Positions 1 through 19,803 of a stretch of DNA of 64,000 nucleotides are shown piece after piece. Position numbers and translations under genes: made by a program. Position 1 is the stretch's first letter, and each line of letters begins with the position of its first letter. The notes beneath the pieces are model-generated. The model searched no databases, was not told where the DNA came from, and worked only from the letters and a program-made list of their open reading frames with translations. This DNA comes from Streptomyces antimycoticus (GTDB taxonomy: Bacteria; Actinomycetota; Actinomycetes; Streptomycetales; Streptomycetaceae): assembly GCF_005405925.1 (NCBI RefSeq), contig NZ_BJHV01000001.1, forward strand, positions 10,354,001 through 10,418,000. The letters are read 5' to 3'.

Positions 1-3000
1 GGCCGGGGAGGCGAGTCCCAGGCCCTGCACCTCACCGGCGGCGATCCGGGCAGCCCGTACGCCGTCGAGGTGAACGCCTGGACCGACGCGGCCACCGGCA
101 GCCTGCACGCCGTCTTCACCCTCGCCGAAGGCATCCCGGACGAGATCACCGACCACTGGCGGAGCGCACTGGAACGCATCGCGGACGCCTCCGCGACGGC
201 CGAGCGCACGGTACCGGTCACCCCACTCCAGCGGGGCCTCTACTTCCAGGCTCAGATGGCGGGTTCGGCGGGACACTACGTCGCGCAGAGCTGGTTCACC
301 TTCGACCGGCGCCTGGACACCGACGCACTGTCCGAGGCGATGGCGTATGTAATGGCGCGGCACCCGGTCGTGGCCGCCGGCTTCGCCACCGACGACGACG
401 GCAACCCGGTCCAGGTCCTGGGGGCGGGCCGGCGCGTCCACGTCCGTACGGTCGAGCTCACGAGCGACGCGGACGTCGAGGCGCTGCGCACCCGGGACCG
501 CGATACGGGATTCGACCCGGGCGAGCCCCCGCTGATCCGGATGACCGTGGTGCGGCTGCCCGGCGACCGCGACGGGCTGCTGCTCAGCTACCACCTGCTG
601 CTGTGGGACGGCTGGTCCCGCGAGATCGTGCTGCGGGACCTGTTCGACGCCTACCAGGCCGTCCTCGCGGGCGAGTTGCCCGATCCGGCCCCGGCCACGC
701 CGAGCTTCGAGGACCACGCCCGGGCGCTCGACGCCAAGGACGCCGCCGCGTCGGCACGCTTTTGGGCCGAGCACCTGGCCGGTCTCCCCGGCCCGACGCT
801 GCTCGCCGGACCGGCGCCGTCCCTTGCCGACGACCTGCCGCGCGCGCTCGTGCACACGCTGTCCGCCGAGCGGTCGGAGCTGCTGCGGGCGGTGGCCAGG
901 GCGCACGGCGTCACCCTGAACTCGGTGCTGACGGGCGCGTTCGGCCTGCTGCTCGGCGCCCACACGGGGCGCGACGACGCCGTGTTCGGTGTGACCGTCT
1001 CCGGCCGGGAGGGTGAGGGGCTGGAGGGCATCGTCGGCGTGCTGCTCAACACCGTCCCCATGTGGACCCGGGCCCGGCCGGACGACACCGTCCGCGGATA
1101 TCTGTCGGACGTGCAGGCGGCCAGGGTCGAGGCGATGCTCCACGAGCATCTGGGGCTCGGCGAGATCCAGCGGGCCACCGGGCACGACACCCTGTTCGAC
1201 AACCTCTTCGTGCTCCAGAACTTCCTGGACATGGACGCGTTCGCCGAGATGAACGCCAGGCATGGCATCACCTCGGTGACGGCCGACGACTCCACCCACT
1301 ACCCGTTCACCTGGGTCGTCACCCCCGGCGACCGGCTCACGGTCAAGCTGGAGTACCGCGACGAGGACACCGCGAACGCCCGGCGGCTCCTCGACGACTA
1401 TCTGCGGGTGCTCGACGACCTGGTCCGAGCCACCGGACCGGTCGGCGCGCTGCGGGGACTGGGGCCGGAGCCCGTGCCCGCCGAACGCACCGACATCGGC
1501 ACGGACACGGTGGTCGACCGGTTCGACCGGGCGGCGGACCGCGACCCGCGGCGGACCGCGCTCGTCGCCCACGGCTCGACCATGACCTTCGCCCAGCTGC
1601 GGGACCGCAGCCGCGCGGTGGCCGGTGTGCTCGCCGGGCGCGGCATCGGCCCCGAGACGACCGTGGGCCTCGCGATCCCGCGCTCCCTGGATTCGATCGT
1701 GGCGCTGTTCGCCGTGCTGCGCGTCGGCGCCGCGTATGTGCCACTGGAGCTGGACCACCCGGACGAGCGGATCGCCGCGATCGTCGCGGACGCCCGCCCC
1801 GATGTGATCCTGACCGTGAGCGCCGTGTCCCCGCGGCTCACCGGCGACCTGATCGAGCTGGACCGCCCGCTGCCCGGCGCCGAGCCGTACCGGACGTATC
1901 GGCCTCAGGACCCGCAGCGCCTGCGGCACCCCGCGTATACGATCTACACCTCGGGATCGACCGGGAAGCCCAAGGGCGTGGTGACCGAGTACGCCGGGCT
2001 GACCAATATGCTGATCAACCATCAGCGCCGGATCTTCGAGCCGGTGCTGGCGGACCACGGGCACCGGGTCTTCCGGATCGCGCACACCGTGTCGTTCGCG
2101 TTCGACATGTCGTGGGAGGAGCTGCTGTGGCTCGCCGACGGCCACGAGGTGCACATCTGCGACGAGGAACTGCGCCGTGACGCGCCCCGGCTGGTCGAGT
2201 ACTGCCTCGAGCACCACATCGACGTCATCAATGTGACCCCGACCTACGCACAGCAGTTGGTGGCCGAGGGCCTGCTCGACCACCCGGAGCGGCGGCCGGC
2301 GCTGGTGCTGCTGGGCGGCGAGGCGGTCACTCCGGCGCTGTGGCAGCGACTCGCGGAGACCGAGGGGACGGTCGGCTACAACCTGTACGGACCCACCGAG
2401 TACACCATCAACACCCTCGGCGTCGGCACCTTCGAATGCCAGGACCCGGTGGTGGGCGTGCCGATCGACAACACCGATGTGTATGTGCTGGACCCGTGGC
2501 TGCGGCCGCTGCCCGACGGCGTTCCCGGTGAGCTGTACGTATCGGGCATCGGCATCGCCCGCGGCTATCTCGGGCAGCCCGACCAGACCGCGCACCGCTT
2601 CGTGGCGTGCCCGTTCGGCGCACCCGGCGAGCGCATGTACCGCACCGGCGACCTGGTGGCCCGCCGGCCGGACGGCAATCTGATGTACCTGGGCCGCATC
2701 GACCAGCAGGTCAAGATCCGGGGGCACCGGGTCGAACTGGGCGAGGTCGAGGCGGTGTTCGCGGCGCACCCTGCGGTGCGGTTCGTCGCCGCGGTCGCCC
2801 AGCCCGATCCGCAGGTCGACGGCGCCTACCGGCTGGCCGCCTACCTTGTCCTGGACGGGTCCGAGCTGGCGGAGGTCGCCGCCGAAGTGGGCGCCGGGCT
2901 GCCGGACTTCCTGCGCCCGACGCACTACGCCCAGGTCGACAGCATCCCGCTGACCGTCAACGGGAAGGCTGACACCAAGGCGCTGCCGGAGGCCAAGCCG

Positions 3001-3267
3001 CTGGGCACGCTGACCACGGCGGGGGAGCGGGGACCGCGGACCGAGCACGAGACCGTGGTGTGCGAGTTCTTCGCCGAGGCACTGGACCTGGATGACGACG
3101 AGGTGAGTGCGGTGAGCGATTTCGTGTCCCTGGGAGGGCACTCCATGCTGGCGGTGCGGCTGATCGGGCTGCTCCGCCGCGAGTACGGCCCTGTGATCAC
3201 CATCCGTGATCTGTTCACCCTGCGAACCCCGGAAGCGATTGCCCGCCACCTTGATGACCACTCCTGA
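1..3267 (+). CDS. cchH: Siderophore NRPS, terminal C-A-T module (CchH-like, 5' end outside window)
   Basis: The reading frame is open from base 1, so this is the C-terminal part of a larger synthetase. The first 60 residues look like the end of an epimerization domain. A condensation domain follows (PVTPLQRG near residue 72), then an adenylation domain with [25 protein letters not shown], a [13 protein letters not shown] core and NGKAD, and last a carrier domain with LGGHS (attachment Ser codon at 3142-3144). There is no thioesterase. The visible A-domain pocket residues (D, M, E, N, L, G, L, I, N, K) match the code I recall for the N5-hydroxyornithine-activating third module of coelichelin synthetase CchH. 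That specificity is inference from recalled knowledge. The condensation motif reads HLLLWDG instead of HHxxxDG. The downstream exporter and esterase genes follow the same cchH-cchI-cchJ order I recall from Streptomyces coelicolor. Confidence 0.85.
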
Positions 3268-4954
3268 CACCCAGCGACCCCGCCCGGGGGCAGACATCCT
3301 CCGGACCGCACTGCGCCGCAACATCGGCGCCATGACCTGGGGCACCGTCCTCATGGGCCTGTACCAGGCCGGTGAGACCGCCTTTCCCATCGCGCTCGGG
3401 CTGATCGTCGAGCACACGATGCGGGACCGCACCCTCGGCTCGCTCGGCCTGGCGATCGCCGCGCTGGCGGTCATCATCACGACGGTGTCGCTGTCGTGGC
3501 GGTTCGGGATGCGCGTCCTGCAGAAGGCCAACACCACCGAGGCGCACCGCTGGCGGGTGAAGGTGGCGGCCTACGGCCTCCAGCCGGTGGCCAGGGACGT
3601 CGACCTGAAGTCCGGCGAGGTGCTGACCATCGCCACCGAGGACGCCGACCAGACCGCCGACATCATCGAGGTGGTGCCGCTGCTGGTCAGCTCGCTGGTG
3701 GCGGTGCTGGTCGCGGCGGTCGCGCTCGGCCTGGCCGACGTCCGGCTCGGCCTGCTGGTGATCGTGGGCACCGTCGCGATTCTGTCGATCCTGAGCGTGC
3801 TCTCCCAGCGGATCGGCTCCAGCACCCGCGAACAGCAGGCCCGGGTGGCGCGGGCGGGGGCGAAGGTCGCGGACCTGATCACCGGCCTGCGCCCGCTGCA
3901 CGGCTTCGGCGGCAACCACGCGGCGTTCGGTTCCTATCGGAGGGTCAGCACTGAGGCGAAACACCAGGCGATCACCGTCGCCAAGGTCAACGGCGTGTAC
4001 GCGGGCACCGCGCTGGCCCTCAACGCGGTCCTCGCCGCGGCCGTGACCCTGCTGGCGGGCTCACTTGCCTTCAGCGGCCGGATCACCATCGGGGAACTGG
4101 TCATGGCCGTGGGGCTGGCACAGTTCATCATGGAACCGCTCAAGCTGTTCTCGGAGATGCCGAAGTACGTGATGATGGCGCGCGCGTCCGCCGAGCGGAT
4201 GGCGCTGGTGCTGGGCGCCCCGCCGGTGGCGGCCGATGGGCGGGAGCGCCCGGCCGCGGGCGGCGACCTCGACCTCGACTGCGTCCGGTACGGCTCGCTG
4301 TGCGAGCTGAAGTTCACGGTGGCCGCCGGCGAGTTCGTGGCGATCGCGCCCTACCAGCCGCGCGCGGCGGCCGACCTCGCGTCGATCCTGGCCGTGAAGG
4401 TCCCGCCCGGCGCGTACGAGGGAGCGGTGCGGGTCAGCGGACGGGAGCTCGCGGACCTGTCGATCGAGGCGGTCCGCGAGCACATGCTGGTGAACCCGTA
4501 CGACGGGGAGATCTTCGCGGGCACCCTCGGCACGAACATCGATCCCTCGGGCACCAGCCGGATGGTCGCCGAGGCCGTCGAGGCATCCATGCTGACCGAT
4601 GTCGTCGCCCTCCACCGCGAAGGACTCGACTACGGCGTCCGCGACCGCGGCGCAAATCTCTCCGGGGGACAGCGCCAGCGGCTGTCCCTGGCCCGCGCCC
4701 TCGCCGCCGACACCGACGTGCTCGTCCTGCACGACCCGACAACGGCGGTCGACGCGGTCACCGAGCAGCTCATCGCGCGCAACATCGCGAAGCTGCGCCG
4801 GGACCGCACCACCATCGTGATCACCAGCAGCCCGGCGCTCCTGAACGCCGCCGACCGGGTCCTCGTCCTGGACGACGGCGTCATCACGGCCGAGGACACC
4901 CATCGCAACCTCCTCGCCACCGACCAGGACTACTGCCTGGCGGTGGCCCGGTGA
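3254..4954 (+). CDS. cchI: ABC exporter subunit with degenerate ATPase site (CchI-like)
   Basis: This 566-residue half-transporter has an N-terminal membrane domain of about 310 residues with six likely spans and a C-terminal nucleotide-binding domain. The start ATG overlaps the NRPS stop by 14 bases, suggesting translational coupling. The signature [15 protein letters not shown] is intact. The expected Walker A position reads [12 protein letters not shown] and lacks the GxxGxGKST loop. The Walker B region reads [11 protein letters not shown], so the Asp-Glu pair is His-Asp. Such a site cannot be expected to hydrolyse ATP well. In heterodimeric exporters one partner is often degenerate in this way. 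The competent partner would probably be a CchG-like subunit encoded outside the window. The likely role is siderophore export across the cytoplasmic membrane. Confidence 0.8.
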
Positions 4955-4963
4955 CCCGGCCCG

Positions 4964-6064
4964 CTAACCGAGCGCCCAGGCGACATCCCTGAGCAGGGCG
5001 TGCCGCCAGCCCGCCCGGTCGTGGCCAGCCGCCGACCGCGAGACCCGTATGGTCGCGCCGGATTGCCGGACCAGGCTCTCGGCCAGCTCGCAGTGCGGGA
5101 GCATCCGCGTCTCGTGCTCCCCCACGTCGAACGCGACCCGCAGACCGGACAGGTCGGGGCGCTCGCGCAGCCGCGCGGCCATGGTGCCGCCGACCGGGCC
5201 GCCCATGGGGTCCGGCAGGTCCATGGCGCCTGGTGTCCACCAGAACGACCCCGACTGACAGGCCACGCGGGACACCAGGTCCGGGAACTCCAGCGCCGCG
5301 TACAGCGCGCTCAGCCCGCCCAGGCTCTGCCCCGCGACCACCAGCCGGTCCGGGTCGGCGGGTGCGCCGGATTCCGCCACCAGCGGCAGCAGTTCGTCCC
5401 CGATCGCCTCCCACAGCGCGGGGCCGCACCCGAACTCGGCCTCCCTGTCCTTGCTCGGCAGGAAGACGAGCGTGACGGCGGGCATCTCGCCGCTCGCGAC
5501 GGCCGAGTCGAACGCGGTCATGGCCGGGTGCAGATACAGCCAGTCGTCCCCGTCGAGCAGCAGGACCACGGGTCCGCCGCCGCCCACCGGGTGGACGCGC
5601 ACGGTGCGCCGCCCGCCGAGCCGTGCGCTGTTCCAGCGGATCCGGTTGTGCGGGAGGGGCAGTACGGCATCGGCGCCGAGGACGGGCCAGTGCGGCTGGG
5701 CCGGGGTGTCCGGGGTGGCGGCGATGGATCGGTCACCGCCCGCGCCGACCGGGTTGAACGGGTCGGCGTGCGCCGCGTCGCCCGCGAGGAACTGGTAGGT
5801 CACCCGCAGCCGCGCGGGCATGCGCACCTCGGCGTACCAGCAGTCCGTGTCACCCCATCGGCACAGGGGGACCGGCTCCGACCAGCTCTCGAAGCCGATG
5901 CTCGCCGGAGAGCCGCGCCACAGGAACAAGGTCGTCCATCCGCCGCCGTCGGCGGGCACCGACACGGGTGTCCCCGCCGCCGCCCAGAACTCGTCGGTGC
6001 CGGGTGTGCCGGGCAGTCCGAACGCGACGAAGGCGTTCTCCCCATCGGTCGCACTCAGGCGCAT
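4964..6064 (-). CDS. cchJ: Fes/IroE-type siderophore esterase (CchJ-like)
   Basis: The protein has 366 residues. Its N-terminal half resembles the enterochelin esterase N-terminal domain, with a GGWTTLFLWRG segment and a DPFNP segment. The C-terminal half is an alpha/beta-hydrolase with the nucleophile elbow GQSLGG and a terminal His in a GHDRAGWRHAL context. The chosen ATG has AAGGAG six bases upstream on the minus strand; an in-frame start ten codons upstream lacks this. The gene converges on the ABC exporter gene. An iron box lies 48-66 bases upstream of the start, so repression by DmdR/IdeR with Fe2+ is very likely. In coelichelin clusters the homologous esterase is thought to act on the ferric siderophore or to release the product; which of these applies here cannot be told from sequence. 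Confidence 0.82.
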   Translation of the reverse strand: MRLSATDGENAFVAFGLPGTPGTDEFWAAAGTPVSVPADGGGWTTLFLWRGSPASIGFESWSEPVPLCRWGDTDCWYAEVRMPARLRVTYQFLAGDAAHADPFNPVGAGGDRSIAATPDTPAQPHWPVLGADAVLPLPHNRIRWNSARLGGRRTVRVHPVGGGGPVVLLLDGDDWLYLHPAMTAFDSAVASGEMPAVTLVFLPSKDREAEFGCGPALWEAIGDELLPLVAESGAPADPDRLVVAGQSLGGLSALYAALEFPDLVSRVACQSGSFWWTPGAMDLPDPMGGPVGGTMAARLRERPDLSGLRVAFDVGEHETRMLPHCELAESLVRQSGATIRVSRSAAGHDRAGWRHALLRDVAWALG

Positions 6065-7786: not shown

Positions 7787-8303
7787 TTGATCACGGCTAT
7801 GCCCTGCCCCGCTGCCGCACACCCTCCTCGCGCCGACGTCCCGCACGCGCAGCGCCCGTCCGGAGGACGCCGCCGCACTCGCCGAGCTGTCCCGGCCCTT
7901 CGCGTGTTCGGGGGCGCTGCGGGAGCGTCCTGTCGCGCTCTACGCCACCCATGCGGCCGACTTCCTGCTGGCGGAGGCCCCCGATGGCACCGTCGAGGGC
8001 TGCGTGGGCCTGCGTGTGCACCCAGCCGACGCGGGGGAGGGCCGCGGGCCCGCGGGCGTGGTGTACAACTTCTGCGTGGCCGGCCCGAGTCAGGGAAGCG
8101 GAGTGGGAGTCGGACTGCTGCGCGCCGCGCTGGCCAGAGCGCGCGCCCAATCGCTCGGTGCCCTGTTCACGGCGACGACCGGCGGTGGCGGCCTGTTCCT
8201 CCGGTATGGATTCGCGCCCACGACGGTGCGCCTGGCGCCTTCGCGCTGGGTGGAGTCGCTGGACCCCCGGCGCGATGCGCGGATCCTCGCGCGGACCGTG
8301 TGA
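7787..8303 (+). pseudogene. GNAT N-acetyltransferase, frameshifted near N-terminus
   Basis: From about 7850 to 8303 one frame encodes a GNAT domain with RPEDAAALAEL, LLAEAPDGTVEGCVGLRV, a VVYNFCV strand, an acetyl-CoA loop of the form GSGVGVGLL and a C-terminal LFTATTGGGGLFLRYGF segment. That frame has no ATG, GTG or TTG start between its upstream stop at 7788 and 8004. A plausible start (TTG 7787, preceded by GGAAGG) lies in another frame, so a one-base insertion or two-base deletion near 7840-7855 is needed to join them. The C-terminal pattern resembles small amino-acid N-acetyltransferases of the N-acetylglutamate-synthase type; that is a family-level guess. The gene follows the frameshifted amidohydrolase by 65 bases. 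Confidence 0.55.
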
Positions 8304-8754
8304 CAGCTCGCCTTGCGTCACGCCCTGCGGCGGAGTGGATAGCAGGGTAGGCAGCGGGTCGACCCCGGGACATGGTGCAGGACACCATCCTCACGTCGGC
8401 CGGGCTGGTCGCGAGACACAGGGGCGGGCGGTGGCCCGCACCATCCGCAGATCCGCAGAGCTACGGACCGGACGGTCTGAGACTCCGGGCAACCCGGAGG
8501 AAGGCCGTGGCCGGTCGCCGCGTGGGGGAGAAGGCAGGTGGCCGGCTTGTGACGGCCGAGCCGAGTAGCAGATCGGTCCTCGACCGCGCAATCCGTGTGA
8601 CGCCGACGGCGGCGAATTCGCTTGTGGTGCCCAGGGCCATGGCGACGGACCACGGCCGATTCTACCGTTCCGGCCACGCCTGGTGCTTCCGGCGCACAGC
8701 GACGCGTCGGCGGCCACAGGAACACCGGGAGCGCATCAACCGAAGGAGCCTTCC
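8304..8754. other. Intergenic region without recognised gene; one strong hairpin
   Basis: No convincing coding frame is visible. The clearest element is a perfect 7-base-pair hairpin with a CAA loop at 8483-8499 (CTCCGGG/CCCGGAG), not followed by a T run. The last 20 bases hold the AAGGAG ribosome-binding site of the esterase gene. The region could contain a long leader for that gene; I do not recognise a known riboswitch. Confidence 0.4.
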
Positions 8755-9774
8755 ATGCCAGTCCCCCCACGCCACGTACCACCACGGAGCCGATGGAGCC
8801 GCATCGCGGCCCGGCTCCTCCCCGTCGCCGCCCTCGTGCTCGGAGCCGTTCTCGCCGGGCCCGCGCCCGCCGCGAACGCCGCGGTCACCCTCACGAAGGT
8901 GAGCAACTTCGGCTCCAATCCCGGGGCGTTAAACATGTACGTGTACAAGCCGGCGTCGCTGCCCGCGAACGCGCCCGTGGTCGTCGCGCTCCACGGGTGC
9001 ACACAGAGCGCCCAGGTCTACGCCGACAACTCAGGGCTGCCCGAGCTCGCGGACCGCGACAAGTTCGTCCTGGTGCTCGCCGAGACCACCTCGTCGAACA
9101 ACCTCACCAAGTGCTTCAACTGGTTCCAGGCCGGTGACATTCGGCGTGACCAGGGCGAGGCCCTGTCGATCCGGCAGATGGCCGGCCACGCCGTGTCGGC
9201 GTATGGCGGGGACTCCAAGCGGGTCTACATCACCGGACTGTCCGCCGGCGGTGCCATGACCTCGGTCATGCTCGCCACCTACCCCGATGTCTTCTCCGCC
9301 GGCGCGGTCGTCGCGGGCCTGCCCTACAACTGCACCAAGAGCAGCAGCCCTTACCTGTGCATGAACCCCGGGCTCGACCTCGGTCCGGACGAGTGGGCCC
9401 AGCGGGTGCGCGAGGCGTACCCGTCGTACCAGGGACCGTGGCCGCGGGCCGCCATCTGGTACGGCGACCGCGACACGACGGTCGTGCCGCGCAACGCCAC
9501 CGAACTGCGCGATCAGTGGACGGCGTTGCACGGGCTGTCCCAGACGCCCACCCGCACCTCCAGCATCGGTCCCAACGCCACCCGGCACGACGAGTACGTG
9601 GCATCCGACGGCACGGTGGCCGTCGAGGTCAACAAGGTCCCCGGCATCAACCACGGCACGCCGGTCGACCCCGGCACCGGCGCCGAACAATGCGGCAGCA
9701 CCGGCGCCCCGTACTTCCTGGACTCGATCTGCTCCAGCTACTGGATCACCAAGTTCTTCGGTCTCGGCGGCTAG
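8755..9774 (+). CDS. Secreted PHB-depolymerase/feruloyl-type esterase
   Basis: The protein has 339 residues. A signal peptide of about 42 residues ends near AANA. The mature part starts with the family hallmark strand MYVYKPASLP and VVVALHGCTQSA. The nucleophile elbow is GLSAGGAM with Ser163, and the likely catalytic His lies in the C-terminal GINHGTP segment. The start ATG has AAGGAG at good spacing. Members of this family hydrolyse short-chain polyhydroxyalkanoates, feruloylated xylan or similar esters outside the cell; which one is not decidable here. Codon 59 (8929-8931) is TTA, which in Streptomyces makes translation depend on the bldA leucyl-tRNA, so expression is probably tied to late growth or development. 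The gene appears to be single, with 450 bases of non-coding DNA upstream. Confidence 0.85.
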   Translation: MPVPPRHVPPRSRWSRIAARLLPVAALVLGAVLAGPAPAANAAVTLTKVSNFGSNPGALNMYVYKPASLPANAPVVVALHGCTQSAQVYADNSGLPELADRDKFVLVLAETTSSNNLTKCFNWFQAGDIRRDQGEALSIRQMAGHAVSAYGGDSKRVYITGLSAGGAMTSVMLATYPDVFSAGAVVAGLPYNCTKSSSPYLCMNPGLDLGPDEWAQRVREAYPSYQGPWPRAAIWYGDRDTTVVPRNATELRDQWTALHGLSQTPTRTSSIGPNATRHDEYVASDGTVAVEVNKVPGINHGTPVDPGTGAEQCGSTGAPYFLDSICSSYWITKFFGLGG

Positions 9775-11551: not shown

Positions 11552-12709
11552 TCAGCTGCGGAACGGCCCCGTCACCTCATAGGTGATACCGCCTGACGAA
11601 CTGCCGCTGGTGCCGCGCTGGCTGGAGAAGTACAGCCGCCTGCCGTCCGGGGAGAACGCCGGGCCGGTGATCTCCGAGCCCGACTGGCCGTCGATGCGCA
11701 GGAACGGGGCCACCACGTCGTCCGGGGTGATGACACAGATCTCCATGTTCCCGCCGTCCTCGGCCACGAACAGATCGCCGGAGGAGGCCCCGGTCACGTT
11801 GTCCACACCGGTCAGCGGGGCCGTGCCGCCGGTCACCAGCGAATCGTCATAGGCCAGTTCGATCTTCTGGGCGGCCGCGTCGTACTGCCACACCCGGTTG
11901 TCGCCCTTGGTGGTGAACCAGCAGGTGTCGTTCGCGTAGTAGCACCCTTCGCCACCGTTGAACCGCTTGGCCCCGGCCACCTGGTTGCGGGTGGCGGTGG
12001 CGCCGGTCGGATCCGGTACCGCCGCCCAGGTGACGGGGCCACTGGTTCCGGATCCGGCGACCATGACCTCCAGCCTGCCGGAGGAGAGGTCACCCCACGT
12101 CGCCGGCGTGAAACGGTAGAAGCAGCCGTCCGTGACGTCCTCGGTCATATAGACGGTCCGGCGGTCGGGATCGGCCGCCGCCGCCTCGTGCTTGAAGCGC
12201 CCCATCGCGTCGCGCCGCACCGCGGCCTTCACACCCCATGGGTCGGTCTCGTACACGTAGCCGCGGTCGACCTCCTCACAGGACAGCCAGGTGTTCCACG
12301 GGGTCTTGCCTCCCGCGCAGTTCTGCCGGGTGCCGGAGAGGACGCGGTAGGCGCCGGTGACCGTCCCGGTCGAGGAGAACCTCACCGCGCTCGCCCCGCC
12401 CGACGGGTTGATCTCCGAGTTGGAGACATAGATCCAGCCACTGCCGTCGGCGTAACAGGCCCCGCCGTCCGGGGCGTCGTGCCAGGTGTACGAGGTGCCG
12501 GCGACCGTCTTCCGCGAACGGGCGACAACCCGGCTGGTGAAGCCGGCGGGAAGCCGTACGCCGTTGGCGTCCGGCGAACCGAGTGCCCCGTACGGGCCGG
12601 CGCCCGGCTGCGCCGGTGCGGCGTGCGCGGCGCCGCGCCACAAGGTTCCGCCGAAAGCTGCCGAGGAGCCGCCGATGACGGCGGAACGCAGGAGGGTGCG
12701 ACGTTTCAC
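11552..12709 (-). CDS. Tat-exported PhoX-family (DUF839) protein
   Basis: The protein has 385 residues and starts with MKRRTLLRSAVIGG, a twin-arginine signal whose processing site is probably near AHAAPAQ. The body shows repeated beta-propeller strands with the PhoX/DUF839 hallmarks YADGSGWIYVSNSE, CAGGKTPWNTWLSCEE, ETDPWG, AAADPDRRTVYMTED and FNGGEGCYY. The conserved Glu and Asp residues in these segments are those expected to bind Ca/Fe cofactors in PhoX phosphatases. It is shorter than Pseudomonas-type PhoX, so phosphatase activity is plausible but not proven. I saw no clear PhoP direct repeats in the 250 bases upstream. It is divergent from the CHAT operon that follows. Confidence 0.75.
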   Translation of the reverse strand: MKRRTLLRSAVIGGSSAAFGGTLWRGAAHAAPAQPGAGPYGALGSPDANGVRLPAGFTSRVVARSRKTVAGTSYTWHDAPDGGACYADGSGWIYVSNSEINPSGGASAVRFSSTGTVTGAYRVLSGTRQNCAGGKTPWNTWLSCEEVDRGYVYETDPWGVKAAVRRDAMGRFKHEAAAADPDRRTVYMTEDVTDGCFYRFTPATWGDLSSGRLEVMVAGSGTSGPVTWAAVPDPTGATATRNQVAGAKRFNGGEGCYYANDTCWFTTKGDNRVWQYDAAAQKIELAYDDSLVTGGTAPLTGVDNVTGASSGDLFVAEDGGNMEICVITPDDVVAPFLRIDGQSGSEITGPAFSPDGRRLYFSSQRGTSGSSSGGITYEVTGPFRS

Positions 12710-12964: not shown

Positions 12965-13309
12965 GTGCGGGAAGAACTGATTGTGCGGTTACGCGGGGCC
13001 TGGCAGCAGACCGGACCACCCGACAGTGAGCTGGTCGGTACCGCTCTGGCGCCGTTCGGCGCGGACCTCGTCGGAGTGATGGCGGTTGCCCCGGGCGACC
13101 TGCGCATGCTGATCGTGGTGCCGGAGACGGCCGACCTGATCGCCGTCGGCTCGGCGGTGGCGGGCGTGCTGGCACTGCCGTCGCCTCGGATCACCTTCGA
13201 GCGCGAGATCTCCGAGGTCCGGGGGATCGCCGGGCGCGGATACTCCTGCTCCTGCGGTGGGGTCGACGGCGATCACACCGCGGAGTGCCCGAGAGCGGCC
13301 GGCACATGA
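12965..13309 (+). CDS. Small protein of unknown function with C-terminal CxC-x6-H-x3-C cluster; TTA codon 9
   Basis: This is the first gene of the CHAT unit: 114 residues starting with GTG. Residues 1-90 look like a compact alpha/beta fold with strands VGVMAV and LRMLIVVPE. The last 20 residues hold Cys-Ser-Cys, six residues, His, three residues, Cys, a spacing compatible with a small zinc knuckle. I do not recognise a named family. Codon 9 (12989-12991) is TTA, so translation is expected to require bldA tRNA. The stop codon overlaps the next gene's ATG in an ATGA junction, so the two are probably translationally coupled. Being first in an operon with a membrane protein and a CHAT protease, it could be a sensor, adaptor or protease substrate; this is inference. 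Confidence 0.65.
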   Translation: MREELIVRLRGAWQQTGPPDSELVGTALAPFGADLVGVMAVAPGDLRMLIVVPETADLIAVGSAVAGVLALPSPRITFEREISEVRGIAGRGYSCSCGGVDGDHTAECPRAAGT

Positions 13310-14151
13310 GCTGGCGGCCACCCGTCCCGATGGGCTACCTGGACAGCATCCAGGCGGTCGGCGGGTTCGCCGCCCCGCTGCTCGCCGGAGGAAGCTTCAC
13401 GCTCGCGGTGGTGGCGCTGCAGTCGGCCCCGGGCCCCGCGGGCGTCAGCCGGTGGCCGAACGCCTCCCTGGCTCTGTTCGTCCTGTCCGGTCTGCTGCAG
13501 ATCGCAACCATTCAGGCAACGGCATGGTCACGACGTTATATGTGTACCCCGGGCGACCTTCTGGAATGGTTTCCCGGCGAGGAGACCGACGGGACTCCCA
13601 GCCCGTTCCTGATCGGTATGCAGGAGAGCCATCTGCGGCAGGCCCAGCGCTGGGCGAACATGGCACGCGGCTTCTACCATGCGGGGATCATCGCGCTGCT
13701 CGCCGGGCTGCTCGTCATCTGCGTGCCACGAGGACAGCCGACCGGCGGCCGCTGGACGGTCCTCGCCGTCTGTGCGGCCGGCATCGTGGGGGAACTCGCC
13801 TGGCTGGTCAGGGCCACCTTTCTCGATCGCGCGATCCGCCGCGATGCCTGGCTCGGCATGGCCGTCCTGCTCGCCATCCTGGTATCGGTGTCCGCGCCCG
13901 GCATCTGGCATGGCCGGCCGGTACGTATCGGGGGCGCCGCCTGCCTCCTGCTGTGCCTTCTGCCGCTCATCCTGCGCCGATCGGTCACCTCGGCCTCGAT
14001 CACCACGGCGCTGAGCCTGAGTCTCGGTGTGATCGCCCTGTTCTTCCGTGTACCTCAGCCGCTCGTCGTGATAGCGCTGGTGCCGGCGTTCTTTCTCGGA
14101 GCCCACACGTTCGTGGACCTCACCCGCCGTCAGCGCGCTGTGAGCGGGTGA
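13306..14151 (+). CDS. Polytopic membrane protein of the CHAT operon
   Basis: The protein has 281 residues. The ATG at 13306 overlaps the stop of the upstream gene (ATGA); an in-frame GTG seven codons earlier is less attractive. About eight hydrophobic segments are visible, including GGFAAPLLAGGSFTLAVVAL, ASLALFVLSGLLQIATIQ, AGIIALLAGLLVICV, VLAVCAAGIVGELAWLV, AWLGMAVLLAILVSV, GAACLLLCLLPLIL, TALSLSLGVIALFF and LVVIALVPAFFLGAHTF. Between the second and third lies a soluble loop of about 60 residues with GDLLEWFPGEE. I do not recognise a family. It is encoded between the small Cys/His protein and the CHAT protease with almost no gaps, so it likely places that system at the membrane or is a target of the protease. 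Confidence 0.7.
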   Translation: MSWRPPVPMGYLDSIQAVGGFAAPLLAGGSFTLAVVALQSAPGPAGVSRWPNASLALFVLSGLLQIATIQATAWSRRYMCTPGDLLEWFPGEETDGTPSPFLIGMQESHLRQAQRWANMARGFYHAGIIALLAGLLVICVPRGQPTGGRWTVLAVCAAGIVGELAWLVRATFLDRAIRRDAWLGMAVLLAILVSVSAPGIWHGRPVRIGGAACLLLCLLPLILRRSVTSASITTALSLSLGVIALFFRVPQPLVVIALVPAFFLGAHTFVDLTRRQRAVSG

Positions 14152-14175
14152 CCAGACGCCACCGGAGACGAACTG

Positions 14176-17100
14176 ATGGACACTCACGCATTACAGGAAC
14201 TCATCGCCTGCATCAATCGAGTGCACGAGACCGACGACGTCGGGCTCACCTTCGCGGAGGAGATGACCAGGCCCCTCTCGGATGCCTGGCAGAGCTGGGA
14301 CGACGCGGACACCGAGGCGTCCCAGGTGCTGGGTGTCTTCCTCTTCTACCGCTATCTTGCGGCGCACGACCGAACCGACATGCTCATGGCCATCCGGACG
14401 CTCACCCCCTGCCTCCTGTACGCGGACATCGCCCTGCCGCCCGACATGCTCCCCTTCCTCGCCGACTACGGCGTCTGCGAGGCGGAACGGCTGCGCGAGG
14501 ACGCCCGCGGCTCACCCGATCCCGCACGTGCCGAGCGTGCGGCGTTCGCCTGGCAACGCATCGTCATGGCGACCGAGGACGGCCATCCGCAGCGCGAGGA
14601 GCGCGAGCGGTCCCTGCGGCGGGCGAGGCGACTGCTGGCCGCCCGGCGCGGCGACACCGCCTACCTCGACCAGGCCGTCGCCGCGGCACGCGCGGGTCTT
14701 GTCCCGCAGGGCCGCCGGGACCGCCTCGCCACCTGTCATGAGCTCCTCCTGGCGCTGGAAGAACGCTACGAGGCGACCGGGAACGCGGACGATCACGAGG
14801 CCGCGCTGCGGTGCGCGGAGGAGCTGGCCGTATACGCACATACCTCAGCGCGCGATGCCATCGGATGTTCCCTCCTCTTCTCCTTCGGCGAGAAGCTCTT
14901 TCAGCGGTACCTGCGCGATCCCAACACCACGGATCTGCGCCGCGCCATTGGCTTCCTGCGGGACTCGGTCGAGTTTCCCGGCCCGCACCTGCCGACCCGG
15001 CTGCTGGTCCTGTCACGCGCCCTCAGCATCTGGTCCGCTGCCGCCCGGGACCCCGGCATCGTGACCGAGGCGATCGCCCGGGCCGAGCAGGCCGAGGAGC
15101 TGGTCCCGCGGAACCACCAGGACTACCCGCTCATCAAGTGGCAGATCGCCTCGCTGTACTTCGGGCGCTACCGCACGACACACTCCGGCGACGACCTCGA
15201 CCGGGCCGCGGCAGCGATCCTCGAGGCCACCTTGTGCCTGACCCGTGAGCTGCAGATCACCGCTCTCCAGTCCGACATCGCATTCGCCCAGTACGAGCGC
15301 ACGGAGGACAGCGAGCACCTCTTCACAGTCCTCGCCCTGAGGAAACGCGTACTGCGCAAACTCCCCGAAGATGACGACCTCTCCCGGGCCGACGCCCTGT
15401 ACTCGCTCAGTCAGGCCCAGATGCACTGGTACCGGCGGACGGGCTCGCTCGGGGACCTGGACAACGCGGTCGACAACGGCCGCGCCGCCCTTGACCTCGT
15501 GGCCGCGACCGACGCGCGTCGTCGCCCGGATTTCCTGTGCGGGCTCGGCAAAGTCCACATGACGCGCTTCGCCCTGCGCGGTGAGCGAGATGCCCTGCCC
15601 GAGGCGATCGACCGGTTTCGGGAAGCCGTCACCGACGCCCCCGACCGCTACCTGCCGCTTGCGCTGCTCGCCGCCGCCCTCGGGTACCGGTACGACCTGA
15701 CACGGGACATCACCGACCTCGACGAGTCCATCGCCGCGGGCGAACGCGCCTTGGGGCTCGCCCCCGCACCACAGCGGGCGGGCATCCTGCTCGATCTCAG
15801 CGGCGCCCGCCGACTGCGCTTCGGCGGCACCGGCGACGCCACCGATCTCGACCACGCCAGGGCGGCGATCGCCGAGGCGCTCGCCCTCCCCGCTCTCTCG
15901 GCCAGATACCGGATGCGGATCAGTCTGGAGCAGACCGAGCTGGCGTCGCTCTCCACGGTGAATACCGCGGAGCGGCTGTCGGCCTTCGAGGCAGCCGTCG
16001 AGTTGCTGTCCGAGGTCGGCCTGAGCAGCCCCCACCACGAGGACCGCGAGTTCATGTTGTCGGTCCACGCCGGTCTGGGTGCGAAGGCAGCCGACGCCGC
16101 GGTGGCGGCCAACCGCCCTGATCGGGCCCTGGAACTCCTGGAAAAAGCGCGCGGCATCCTCGCCGACACCGCGCCGACGCCGGGATGGCGCGGCAATCGG
16201 GCCACCACCGCCCGCCACCTGTGCCGTAACGCCACCCGTGGCCCGATCGTCACCGTCAGCGCGATCGAGACCGGTGGTCTGGCGTTGCTCGTCACTCCGT
16301 CGGGTGTCCACCCCGTCGCCCTGCCCGGCCTCAGGCTCCACAAGGCCAGGGCCCGGCACAAAGCCCTCGAGGAGGCCCTCGCCTCCGGCGCGTGTGAGGA
16401 CGTCCTCGACGTCCTCACCTGGCTCTGGCACACGGCCGCCCGCCCCGTGCTGGAGGTGCTGAAGGCCACCGGGTGGCAGGGCACCCGCCTCTGGTGGTGC
16501 CCGGTGGGCGTGATGTCCCTCTTCCCCCTGCACGCCGCGGGCGACGGTCACGACGGCGTCATGGACCGAGCGGTGTCCTCGTATCTGCCCACCGTCCGGG
16601 CCCTGCCCGCCGAGCGTCGGCGCCCCACTTCCCCGGGCAGAGCCCTTGTGGTGGCGATGAGCAGAACTTCCGGCCAGGCGTCGCTGCCGGGTGCCGCATC
16701 CGAGGCGAACAGCCTCTCCCGCCTGCTCTCGGCCACCGTCCTGCACAACGAGCAAGCCACCCGCGAGGCCGTCCTGACGGCCCTGCCCAGTACCCGGATC
16801 ATCCATTTCGCCTGCCATGCGCAAGCCGACACCCGCGAACCCACCCGCAGCCGCCTGTTCCTGCACGACCAGCCGCTCACCCCGAGAGATCTGCCGTTCG
16901 GTCTGGACGCCGACCTCGCCTACCTGTCAGCCTGCGCCACCAGCGATGTCATGTTCCTGGGCGCCGACGAAGCCATGCACATCACCGGCGCCTTCCACCT
17001 GGCGGGCTTCCGTCATGTCATCGGCACCCACTGGCGCATCGACGACCTGGCGGCGGCCGACATCGCCGACCACTTCTACACGGTCATCGCGGCTCATGGC

Positions 17101-17205
17101 CCCGACCATGCCGCCCAAGCCCTGCACACAGCCACCGCGGAACTCCGTCGCGCCCACCCCGACAGGCCCGACCTCTGGGCCTCCCACCTCCATGTGGGCC
17201 CCTGA
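14176..17205 (+). CDS. TPR-CHAT domain protease; TTA codon 6
   Basis: This 1009-residue protein has a long alpha-helical region (about residues 60-660) built of TPR-like repeats such as those around DQAVAAARAGL, EAIARAEQAEEL and DLDESIAAGERAL. A C-terminal CHAT domain (about 720-1009) follows. The caspase-like dyad is intact: His881 in IIHFACHA and Cys920 in YLSACAT. CHAT proteins are caspase-superfamily cysteine proteases, and several act in bacterial immunity or regulated proteolysis with TPR domains as sensors; that is family knowledge. The ATG has GGAG nearby and the gene begins 24 bases after the membrane-protein gene. Codon 6 (14191-14193) is TTA, implying bldA-dependent translation. 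It is probably cytoplasmic and recruited to the membrane by its neighbour. Confidence 0.85.
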   Translation: MDTHALQELIACINRVHETDDVGLTFAEEMTRPLSDAWQSWDDADTEASQVLGVFLFYRYLAAHDRTDMLMAIRTLTPCLLYADIALPPDMLPFLADYGVCEAERLREDARGSPDPARAERAAFAWQRIVMATEDGHPQREERERSLRRARRLLAARRGDTAYLDQAVAAARAGLVPQGRRDRLATCHELLLALEERYEATGNADDHEAALRCAEELAVYAHTSARDAIGCSLLFSFGEKLFQRYLRDPNTTDLRRAIGFLRDSVEFPGPHLPTRLLVLSRALSIWSAAARDPGIVTEAIARAEQAEELVPRNHQDYPLIKWQIASLYFGRYRTTHSGDDLDRAAAAILEATLCLTRELQITALQSDIAFAQYERTEDSEHLFTVLALRKRVLRKLPEDDDLSRADALYSLSQAQMHWYRRTGSLGDLDNAVDNGRAALDLVAATDARRRPDFLCGLGKVHMTRFALRGERDALPEAIDRFREAVTDAPDRYLPLALLAAALGYRYDLTRDITDLDESIAAGERALGLAPAPQRAGILLDLSGARRLRFGGTGDATDLDHARAAIAEALALPALSARYRMRISLEQTELASLSTVNTAERLSAFEAAVELLSEVGLSSPHHEDREFMLSVHAGLGAKAADAAVAANRPDRALELLEKARGILADTAPTPGWRGNRATTARHLCRNATRGPIVTVSAIETGGLALLVTPSGVHPVALPGLRLHKARARHKALEEALASGACEDVLDVLTWLWHTAARPVLEVLKATGWQGTRLWWCPVGVMSLFPLHAAGDGHDGVMDRAVSSYLPTVRALPAERRRPTSPGRALVVAMSRTSGQASLPGAASEANSLSRLLSATVLHNEQATREAVLTALPSTRIIHFACHAQADTREPTRSRLFLHDQPLTPRDLPFGLDADLAYLSACATSDVMFLGADEAMHITGAFHLAGFRHVIGTHWRIDDLAAADIADHFYTVIAAHGPDHAAQALHTATAELRRAHPDRPDLWASHLHVGP

Positions 17206-17451
17206 CACCGGACCGGGTCCGACACTGAGCGAGCGCGGCACCGCGCGGGGCGGGCGGCGCGCCGTCACGACCCCGCGAGAGGGCTATACATCGGTTGGCT
17301 GATGTTCTCCATCGCTTCGCAGTCGCTGTGCGGTCCAACTCACCTGCGAATATGGGCTCTTCGGGATTCTGATACGTCGGATGTCTTCCCCTGAAGCTCA
17401 TACGGCCTGCACCATGCCGGTAGTTCACAACCGTCCATGGGAGGCACATAC

Positions 17452-19803
17452 GTGACCGCGCCAACAGGGAACGGGATCTCTCGCAGAGGTGTGATCGGCT
17501 CGGCGGCCGTAGCCGGCTCGGCGGTGGCACTCGGGGCCGCGGGCCCGCTGGGCGGATCGGGGACCGCCTGGGCCGCGCCCCGGGCGGCCGACGAGGCGGG
17601 AAGCCTGTCCGAGCGGCTGGCCAGGGCCGCGGCCCTGCGGTGGCGGCGGATGCCCGGCGACTGGAAGGACGGTCCCTTCCTGGCCAATGGCCTGCTCGGG
17701 GCGAACGTCTACCGGGGCGCCACGGCCAACTCCGTGAAAGTGATGGTCAGCCACTATCACGTACAGGACCAGCGACCCCAGTGGGCCGCCACGTACGGCT
17801 ACTCACGGCTGCCCATCGGGCACTTCGACCTCACCCTCGCCGGAGAGGTGACCGATGTCGACTGGACGCTCGACCTCTGGGACGCCGAGCTGCGCGGCAC
17901 CGTCACCACCACCCGGGGCAGCGTCCGCTTCTCGATGCTGGTGCACAACGCCCGTGGCGCGCTGCTGATCTCCACCCGGCCGAGCGCGGGCGAGGAGAGC
18001 GCGGCCTGGTCGTTCACCTGGATGCCCGCCGCCTCGCCCCGGACCAAGGGCAAGCCCGCCGACTACACGGGCAACCCCGACCCCCGCACCGGCTCCGCGG
18101 GCGAGACCCACTACGTCGAACAACCGCTGATCGCGGGCGGCGGATGGGCCACCGCCTGGCGGGAACGGCGCGTCGGCACCGGCAGGTTGCTCGCCGCGCA
18201 CATCGTCTACCGCTACCCGGACGACCTCGCGAAAACCACCGAACTCGCCGTGGCCGAGGTGGCGCGCACCCTGGCCGAGGACCCGGACGAGCTGGTGCGT
18301 GCGCACCGCGGCTGGTGGAACCGTTTCTACCAGCGCAGCCTGCTCTCCGTGCCCGACAAGCGGATTCAGGACTTCTACTGGATCCAGCTCTACAAGGCCG
18401 CCTGCGCCACCCGCGCCGGAGGACCCTCGATGTCCGAGTGGGGACCCTGGTACCCGGAGACCGGAGGGAGTTGGACCGCGGTCTGGTGGAACCTCAACGT
18501 CCAGATCGCCACCTGGCTGATCCAGGGCTCCAACCACCTCGAACTCGACTCCGTCACCTCCACCTTCAAGGACTTCGAGAAGAATCTCCCACTGTCCCTC
18601 CCGCCCGAGATCCCGAACGAGCAGATCTACGCCCTGTCCCACCCCTCCGACTGGACGCTGCGCCCCGGCGCCCACACCGTCGGCGTCCCGGGCACCGCCA
18701 CCAAGACGGACAACAACGGCAACCTCTCCTGGGCCATGCACAACATCTGGCTCAGCTACCGCCACACCATGGACATCCGCATCGTGCGCGACGTCCTCTA
18801 CCCGATCCTCGTCAAAGCGGTGAACTACTACGACCACTTCCTCTACGAGGGCGGTGACGGCAAACTGCATCTGCCGCTCACCCGGTCCCCGGAGTACGCG
18901 GACGCGGTGGACTGCACCTACGATCTCTCCCTGCTCCGCTGGGGCTGCACCACGCTCCTGGACTGCCTGCGCATCCTCCGCACCGACAACCCGCGCGCCG
19001 GGCGCTGGCGGGAGATCCGGCGGCGTCTGGTCGACTACCCGCGCGACGCCACCGGCGTCACGATCGGCGCCGGCACACCGCTGGCCGACTCCCACCGCCA
19101 CTTCTCCCACATGCTGTGGCTGTACCCGTTGCACGAGCTCACCTGGGACCGGCCGGCCGACCGGGACATCATGCGGACCACGTTCGACCACTGGACCGAG
19201 GACCGCAGCCTCTGGGCGGGGTACAGCTACGCGGCGGCCTCCTCGATGGCGTCGCGGATGGGGCGGCCCGAGGACGCCCTCGACTTCCTCACCACCTTCA
19301 CCGGGAACCTCTTCGACGAGTCGTACATGGACTGCTACATGACCGCGAACACCATGTACGCGGAGGACACCAACCTGGGCATCGAGAGCCCTCTGAGCAC
19401 GGCCCAGTCGATCCTCGACATGGGTATACAGAGCCATGGAGGCGTCGTTAGGGTCTTCCCCTCCGTGTCACGGCGCTGGCCGGACGTCTCGTTCCAGGCC
19501 CTGCGCGCCCAGGGCGCGTTCCTCGTCGACGCGGACCGCGCCGGCGGCAGGACCCGGTGGGTGCGGGTCCACAGCGAGGCGGGCGCGCCACTGGTGCTGC
19601 AGCACGGCATCGCCGGTGCCATCGACGTACGGGACGAGCACGGCCGTCGGCTGCGGTACCGGGAGACCGGACCCGGCCGTATCGAGATCCCGCTCGGCCG
19701 GGACGAGACGGCCGTCGTCGCCCCGCGCGGCGCCCACCCGGACGTGCGACCGCGCGACGTACCGGCCGTCGGCGACGCGAAGCCGTGGGGGCTGCCGGAC
19801 TGA
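17452..19803 (+). CDS. Tat-exported GH95-like glycoside hydrolase
   Basis: The GTG at 17452 is preceded by GGGAGG at seven bases, so it is preferred over the ATG fifteen bases upstream that lies inside this Shine-Dalgarno sequence. The 783-residue product begins with a twin-arginine signal (ISRRGVIGSAAVAGSAVAL). An N-terminal beta-sandwich is followed by an alpha/alpha six-hairpin domain. The segment DSHRHFSHMLWLYPLHELTW matches the HRHxSHL signature of GH95 enzymes, whose known activities are alpha-L-fucosidase and alpha-L-galactosidase. A C-terminal beta domain ends near VVAPRG. The overall similarity is typical of distant GH95-type proteins, so substrate specificity remains open. It stands alone, with 246 bases upstream and small genes on the opposite strand downstream. 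Confidence 0.7.
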   Translation: MTAPTGNGISRRGVIGSAAVAGSAVALGAAGPLGGSGTAWAAPRAADEAGSLSERLARAAALRWRRMPGDWKDGPFLANGLLGANVYRGATANSVKVMVSHYHVQDQRPQWAATYGYSRLPIGHFDLTLAGEVTDVDWTLDLWDAELRGTVTTTRGSVRFSMLVHNARGALLISTRPSAGEESAAWSFTWMPAASPRTKGKPADYTGNPDPRTGSAGETHYVEQPLIAGGGWATAWRERRVGTGRLLAAHIVYRYPDDLAKTTELAVAEVARTLAEDPDELVRAHRGWWNRFYQRSLLSVPDKRIQDFYWIQLYKAACATRAGGPSMSEWGPWYPETGGSWTAVWWNLNVQIATWLIQGSNHLELDSVTSTFKDFEKNLPLSLPPEIPNEQIYALSHPSDWTLRPGAHTVGVPGTATKTDNNGNLSWAMHNIWLSYRHTMDIRIVRDVLYPILVKAVNYYDHFLYEGGDGKLHLPLTRSPEYADAVDCTYDLSLLRWGCTTLLDCLRILRTDNPRAGRWREIRRRLVDYPRDATGVTIGAGTPLADSHRHFSHMLWLYPLHELTWDRPADRDIMRTTFDHWTEDRSLWAGYSYAAASSMASRMGRPEDALDFLTTFTGNLFDESYMDCYMTANTMYAEDTNLGIESPLSTAQSILDMGIQSHGGVVRVFPSVSRRWPDVSFQALRAQGAFLVDADRAGGRTRWVRVHSEAGAPLVLQHGIAGAIDVRDEHGRRLRYRETGPGRIEIPLGRDETAVVAPRGAHPDVRPRDVPAVGDAKPWGLPD

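Follow-up and report, generated by a model that had tools for sequence, protein, structure and literature searches.

A CHAT protease operon of Streptomyces antimycoticus with a membrane protein and a small Cys/His protein

In a 64,000-nucleotide stretch of the Streptomyces antimycoticus genome (RefSeq assembly GCF_005405925.1, contig NZ_BJHV01000001.1, positions 10,354,001 to 10,418,000 of the forward strand), three closely packed open reading frames (ORFs) on the plus strand encode a small Cys/His protein, a membrane protein and a CHAT protease. The whole stretch is here called the window, and its positions are counted from its first letter; the contig is 10.9 Mb long, in an 11.2-Mb genome, and one of its ends is about 0.5 Mb away. 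Here, we describe the three genes, the recurrence of their products in other genomes, their TTA codons and the role that they may have.

Organization of the operon

The small gene (12965-13309), the membrane gene (13306-14151) and the CHAT gene (14176-17205) encode 114, 281 and 1009 residues, respectively, and both the packing and the coordinates given by a first-pass annotation, made from the sequence alone, were borne out. The stop codon of the small gene overlaps the ATG of the membrane gene at 13306 (ATGA), the membrane and CHAT genes are 24 bases apart, and a GGAG lies just 5' of the ATG of the latter at 14176. The longest ORF of the membrane gene, for which the first-pass annotation named no start, runs from a GTG at 13285 to 14151. 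Translation from ATG 13306 starts two residues ahead of a W-x-x-P motif, where the alignable region of its homologues begins; because of this and the overlap with the small gene's stop, ATG 13306 is probably the true start. Since GTG 12965 lacks a clear ribosome-binding site, the start of the small gene, and hence its TTA codon, is less certain.

The single-sequence AlphaFold2 model of the small protein has a b-a-b-b-a-b order, with a mean predicted local distance difference test score of 64.6 and residues 81 to 114 below 50, and a ferredoxin-like alpha/beta domain is predicted on this basis. Its tail carries the C95-x-C97-x6-H104-x3-C108 motif noted earlier (residues 95 to 108; 13247-13288), a possible zinc knuckle that may bind zinc. 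For the membrane protein, a hydropathy scan points to about eight segments (nine raw ones, of which two nearly coincide), and a poor single-sequence model contained eight long helices, in agreement with the eight helices first suggested. Neither protein matched a Pfam family at an E value of ≤1, and for the membrane protein the NCBIfam models likewise yielded none that fits; the initial description had called the small protein unknown and the membrane protein one of no recognised family.

The third protein had been called a TPR-CHAT protease. Its CHAT domain is evident (PF12770; residues 745 to 1008, 16408-17199; E value of 2.8e-46; 158.7 bits against a cut-off of 24), whereas the TPR-like character of its N-terminal part is indicated weakly, by a sub-threshold match to TPR-S (18.6 bits against 27.6). 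The His/Cys dyad is intact, as first described: in an alignment to the solved TPR-CHAT structure 7zoq (E value of 0.004), His881 (HFACHAQAD; 16816-16818) falls on the His of its CHG motif and Cys920 (LSACATS; 16933-16935) on the Cys of its GAC motif. By analogy with H615 and C658 of Csx29, as given in the passages on that protein in PMC10028731, both are predicted to be catalytic.

Recurrence of the membrane and Cys/His pair beside CHAT genes

As judged by alignment, the membrane protein belongs to an unnamed family, here called TMFAM. A phmmer search from the window protein placed TMFAM in 33 of 392 Streptomyces genomes, its own included, with members matched at up to 6e-17. The family core of about 180 residues (alignment A2) comprises a W-x-x-P-x-P-L-G-Y motif, an A-A-P-L-L-A-G motif and four hydrophobic segments, the second and third of which are parted by a loop that contains a conserved W. 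In most of the 30 aligned members the protein ends shortly past this core; the window protein and its homologue at locus L179 carry four further segments, so that the window gene reads as a four-helix core with a four-helix extension. The window protein is 49% identical to that homologue over 214 positions (BLASTP, 9e-50) and 44% identical to the one at L176 over 170 positions. The A2 profile, which includes the window sequence, matches it at 1.2e-48. Searched across the class, the same profile found matches in 13 of 394 genomes, seven of them outside Streptomyces and each of these from another genus.

These seven loci were found by the membrane protein alone, and at four of them (L175, L176, L177 and L178) TMFAM has a CHAT gene as its neighbour. 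Within Streptomyces, Pfam detected CHAT within 10 kb at 3 of the 34 other TMFAM loci (L036, L037 and L055), the search covering the 32 other genomes with TMFAM; since L036 and L055 are closely related, about two independent cases are left. Several of these genomes are in many contigs, which can hide CHAT neighbours. The chance expectation is 0.6% per locus, calculated from 86 CHAT hits across 32 genomes, each about 9 Mb in size, with 10 kb allowed on either side, and the observed counts have probabilities of 4e-8 (4 of 7) and 0.001 (3 of 34); the density is that of TMFAM-bearing Streptomyces genomes, which may differ in other genera, and orthologous loci were counted singly. The functional triad proposed by the first-pass annotation is supported by this linkage, although in Streptomyces it concerns a small part of the loci. 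The outcome that the annotation had named as refuting the idea, homologues unlinked to CHAT genes, is therefore not what was observed. Two other procedures were discarded. The window CHAT protein used alone (phmmer and tblastn) was too insensitive, finding linkage at 1 of 34 fetched loci (L055) where Pfam later found CHAT at L036 and L037, and a home-made CHAT profile missed L177 and L178, both recognised by Pfam.

At L176, CHAT, small and TMFAM genes lie in one direction and the last two overlap; its small protein is weakly similar to that of the window (E value of 0.014), and the overlapping small and membrane genes stand in the same order as in the window. Ahead of the CHAT gene of this triad are a TPR gene and a gene that we take to be Hsp70-like from its sequence (2584-5346). 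At L037 (8094-12552), L177 (5044-8932) and L178 (9573-13473), a CHAT-NB-ARC-type gene, a Cys/His ORF and TMFAM adjoin. Because the three CHAT proteins are homologous over their length (41% identity between L037 and L177, and 61% between L177 and L178) and each lies beside the same two partners, these loci represent one conserved set in three genera. In addition, a Streptomyces avidinii plasmid (NZ_CP108617.1) carries adjoining TMFAM (OG592_RS01385), Cys/His (RS01380) and annotated CHAT (RS01375) genes. A second plasmid that encodes TMFAM, from Streptomyces goshikiensis, has an annotated ABC-three-component system close by; in its gene table, which is incomplete, no gene within 8 kb is annotated as CHAT.

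At least three CHAT architectures accompany TMFAM. The TPR type occurs at the window, L175 and L176; the L036 protein combines CHAT with sub-threshold AAA/STAND and TPR matches; and that of L037 is a CHAT-NB-ARC protein, whose homologues at L177 and L178 have the NB-ARC part sub-threshold or not called.

The small partner recurs as well. A same-strand short ORF with a C-x1-3-C...H...C motif lies close to 19 of 33 TMFAM loci, window included, whereas of 195 positions drawn at random from these loci 10 have one (Fisher, 3e-12). The search pattern was composed after the motif had been seen and counts some shadow frames (e.g., at L059); it omits two contig-end fragments of genome G030 and misses partners above 200 residues (L040) or with other spacing. 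At L061, the Cys/His motif is fused to the N terminus of TMFAM. The closest homologues seen of the small and membrane proteins of the window stand together at L179 (7693-12236), where the small protein is 42% identical to that of the window over 55 aligned positions and the pair is followed by a MoxR-like AAA gene and by a gene for a 657-residue protein with no Pfam match at an E value of ≤1. Overall, these comparisons indicate that the triad is a real, recurring association.

Other surroundings of TMFAM were also observed. The TMFAM genes of L035, L042, L044, L046, L048, L053, L056, L058 and L060 adjoin a gene set that, from its sequence, we presume to encode succinate dehydrogenase (sdh-like), and several of these nine loci hold a small Cys-containing partner. 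At L174 (1-18474), TMFAM lies amid genes for a helicase, an Eco57I/MmeI-type methylase, a GmrSD-type protein and an AbiEii-like AAA protein, a restriction-type setting that is likely a defence island. At L055 (2936-13599), the TMFAM gene is split by a transposase-bearing insertion, with an L036-like CHAT gene on one side and, on the other, CHAT together with a gene of a different membrane family, T.

Family T (motifs PTW-x-GDR and WPRLW) belongs to what appears to be a parallel module. Of the 40 loci whose CHAT is most similar to that of the window, 20 contain T, 12 of these having served as seeds of the T model, and in many of them an overlapping gene encodes a small protein with a Cys tail. 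T with such a small protein and CHAT is found at, for example, L113 (4737-5992), L121 (3417-4675) and L185 (3229-8547), in many Streptomyces and in Rhodococcus; on a Rhodococcus opacus plasmid (NZ_CP130954.1), the small, T and CHAT genes run in one direction. In 150 genomes, T was found at 71 loci, spread over 46 of the genomes, and at least 45 of the loci are within 10 kb of CHAT; 17 of these 45 built the model, and without the seeds the count is at least 28 of 54. The T-CHAT counts are lower bounds, the CHAT list being incomplete, and the T seeds were counted by hand from the rows of alignment A1. T also lies near TMFAM at the nine Streptomyces loci with the sdh-like set and at L055, and at L172 a T-family gene and an AAA gene are near TMFAM.

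A broken relative and the TTA codons

When a single genome of each GTDB species was searched for exact matches to short peptides from the membrane protein, one relative of the operon came up, at a near-identical locus of the sister species Streptomyces violaceusniger NBRC 13459 (L033). The window operon lies between a PhoX-like gene upstream (11552-12709, minus strand) and a GH95 gene downstream (17437-19803, plus strand), and the GH95-type gene also follows the relative. In S. violaceusniger, the small gene is frameshifted by the loss of two bases. In addition, about 3 kb is deleted, so that membrane residues 1 to 129 (numbered from the GTG at 13285) are fused in frame with CHAT residues 821 to 1009 into a 311-residue open frame that keeps both dyad residues (8022-8957). 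Since this sole close copy is broken, the operon looks accessory and prone to loss. Across the whole small ORF, the two genomes differ at 5, 6 and 16 sites at codon positions 1, 2 and 3, a third-position excess that supports its being coding. The first 96 bases, TTA included, have 2, 3 and 5 differences, too few to judge that part.

Both TTA codons reported at first are present, at codon 9 of the small gene (12989-12991) and codon 6 of the CHAT gene (14191-14193). The same GTG start and TTA of the small gene stand in S. violaceusniger, where the region of the CHAT gene TTA is deleted. In the S. avidinii triad, the only TTA is at codon 177 of the membrane gene. A PHB-depolymerase-like esterase gene elsewhere in the window (8836-9774) also holds a TTA, at codon 32 from its called start. 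As described in part of PMC4255298, TTA genes in streptomycetes are few (147 chromosomal in S. coelicolor), biased to gene starts and linked to bldA.

TTA was counted in 41 complete CHAT genes from 40 loci (L105-L144), which were chosen by their high scores against the window CHAT and thus do not sample CHAT genes at random, and whose genes were called by a home-made caller. Fifteen contained TTA, compared with about 7 expected from leucine content (P = 0.001) and with 4 of 40 non-CHAT genes of at least 600 codons. Per 1,000 leucine codons, TTA numbered 3.73 in CHAT genes, 0.95 in the other genes of the CHAT loci and 1.89 in TMFAM loci, an uneven background. An earlier count gave a 4.3-fold enrichment of TTA in CHAT genes, due in part to their higher leucine content, with 16 other listed codons at 0.6- to 1.9-fold.

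The first-pass annotation held that translation would be blocked without bldA tRNA. Indirectly in its favor are the in-frame codons (for the small gene, subject to the choice of start codon), the TTA kept in one close relative and the excess among CHAT genes; on the other side, TTA positions in CHAT genes are scattered, from 1% to 91% of the gene. Thus, bldA gating is plausible for the window operon. The TTA excess suggests that immunity or regulated cell death in bacteria may be tied to the developmental programme of Streptomyces.

Proposed function and comparison with known systems

Taken together, the trio is probably a transferable membrane-acting defence or cell-death module. CHAT genes were present in 112 of 150 Streptomyces genomes sampled, and, to our knowledge, few streptomycete CHAT genes have known substrates or partners; a pair recurring beside varied CHAT architectures offers concrete candidates for CHAT substrates or effectors. 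For the window, we put at about an even chance a model in which the three genes form one conflict system, the pair being its membrane output unit and the TPR-like CHAT protein an activator that cleaves a member of the pair. The small Cys/His protein and the membrane protein, whose core would be two helices, a cytosolic-type loop and two helices, would form a constant, co-translated membrane unit, and the products would associate in a complex. The CHAT protein would be held off until its N-terminal part senses a trigger, and the active protease would then cleave the small protein or the loop. Cleavage would open or depolarise the membrane, so that the infected or stressed hypha is arrested or killed, and through the TTA codons in the small and CHAT genes production would be confined to the stage with bldA tRNA. 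Cleavage of a pair member is proposed because the TPR-CHAT protease of Craspase cleaves a neighbour's product (PMC10028731), by analogy. The intact dyad, the recurrence of the pair, its link to several CHAT types, the unrelated family T beside CHAT and the surroundings of L174 speak for the model. Elsewhere, the same pair might be driven by an NTPase-type (NB-ARC/STAND-like) CHAT protein or possibly by a MoxR-like ATPase; because the pair stays while the activator type changes, a constant output unit with exchangeable activators suits the observations. The wider proposal, that an unnamed transferable pair of a ferredoxin-like zinc-knuckle protein and a membrane protein of four or eight helices is the common executioner of several immune activators (TPR-CHAT, CHAT-NB-ARC/STAND and a MoxR-like ATPase), timed in streptomycetes by bldA to differentiating hyphae, is a speculative one that we consider doubtful.

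Several observations weigh against the output-unit model. At 31 of the 34 other loci in Streptomyces, CHAT is absent from the 10 kb to either side of TMFAM, as far as the contig reaches, and nine of these 31 adjoin the sdh-like set. Among called genes of at least 250 residues (Pfam, with the TMFAM and T genes themselves left out of the rescan), no CHAT was found at L172, L174 or L179, and L179 holds the closest relatives seen of both pair proteins. The only close copy of the operon is broken. The L176 small protein keeps a CxxC and the His and lacks the final Cys, L175 shows no Cys/His ORF though CHAT is present, and in 391 other Streptomyces genomes the small protein has only seven weak matches (E values of 0.0016 to 0.009). 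Neither a cleavage site, nor a pore fold, nor a known defence family was found.

The main rival reverses the direction of the signal: the pair would be a sensor or anchor that perceives an event at the membrane or envelope and then recruits and activates the CHAT protein, whose substrates lie elsewhere. The layout, with genes for a small alpha/beta protein and for a membrane protein next to that of a caspase-fold protease, resembles what was proposed for EACC1 in PMC7159879, and a pair that also occurs without CHAT would fit a general sensor. Nevertheless, the CHAT proteins bring varying sensor-like parts of their own (TPR, NB-ARC and STAND-like) while the pair stays, which an output unit explains better, and we hold the sensor model possible, though on the unlikely side. 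The early TTA codons could also point away from defence, to a bldA-gated proteolytic switch for aerial hypha or spore formation; two such codons in one operon, the excess among CHAT genes and the bldA-linked, start-biased nature of TTA genes (PMC4255298, in part) agree with it. Core developmental genes, however, are unlike this operon with its patchy spread, broken sister copy, plasmid copy and occurrence in other genera, so that a developmental switch seems improbable.

It could further be that three unrelated accessory genes were packed by chance in a chromosome arm, as the many CHAT-less TMFAM copies in Streptomyces and the finding of an intact copy of the window operon in no other genome, among the close relatives searched, would allow. 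Because CHAT recurs at TMFAM loci beyond chance, with several CHAT architectures and in several genera, as in the L176 operon and the L037/L177/L178 set, we regard this as very improbable.

The triad shares some traits with EACC1-caspase, a two-gene conflict system prevalent in actinobacteria in which EACC1 is proposed to be a membrane sensor that activates the caspase, as far as described in the relevant part of Kaur et al. 2020 (PMC7159879). In both, a gene for a small alpha+beta, membrane-linked protein lies beside one for a caspase-superfamily peptidase. However, the window small protein has no match to EACC1 (PF19953) and bears a Cys/His tail, its CHAT domain is C-terminal (745 to 1008 of 1009 residues) where the EACC1-system caspase domain is N-terminal, and the membrane part is a separate multi-helix protein. 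In Craspase, of type III-E CRISPR, the activated TPR-CHAT protease Csx29 was shown to cleave Csx30, the product of a neighbouring gene (PMC10028731, in the part on this reaction), and the window protein likewise has a CHAT His/Cys dyad, here behind a part whose TPR match is sub-threshold. In contrast, it scores 40.1 bits against NCBIfam NF041237, whose cut-off is 300, and its neighbours have no recognised relation to Csx30. Pfam found no Cas family in the four flanking genes; Cas7-11/gRAMP and a CRISPR array were not searched for in the rest of the window.

The SLATT two-helix effectors, too, are membrane proteins that accompany conflict systems (parts of PMC7159879). The likeness is weak: the SLATT_1 profile matches 11 of 30 TMFAM members, at best at 2.4e-4, one scored member reaches 17.8 bits against a cut-off of 41, and the window protein has no match at an E value of ≤0.1. 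In bacterial gasdermin operons, CHAT-type proteases activate a membrane-damaging neighbour; the window membrane protein differs in being hydrophobic throughout. PADLOC-DB 2023 returned no family for any of the three window proteins at an E value of ≤0.01, and a description of the triad was not found among the matches listed in openly licensed literature.

A further parallel in layout is the module of T, small protein and CHAT in Streptomyces and Rhodococcus, for which we found no name. It too joins a CHAT protease, a multi-helix membrane protein and a Cys-tailed small protein, often from overlapping genes; unlike it, the window membrane and small proteins have no phmmer match among the genes of the 40 CHAT loci. 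With its parts other than CHAT unnamed in the libraries searched, the triad is best described as a variant within the known CHAT/caspase conflict systems, with a presumed role in defence or cell death.

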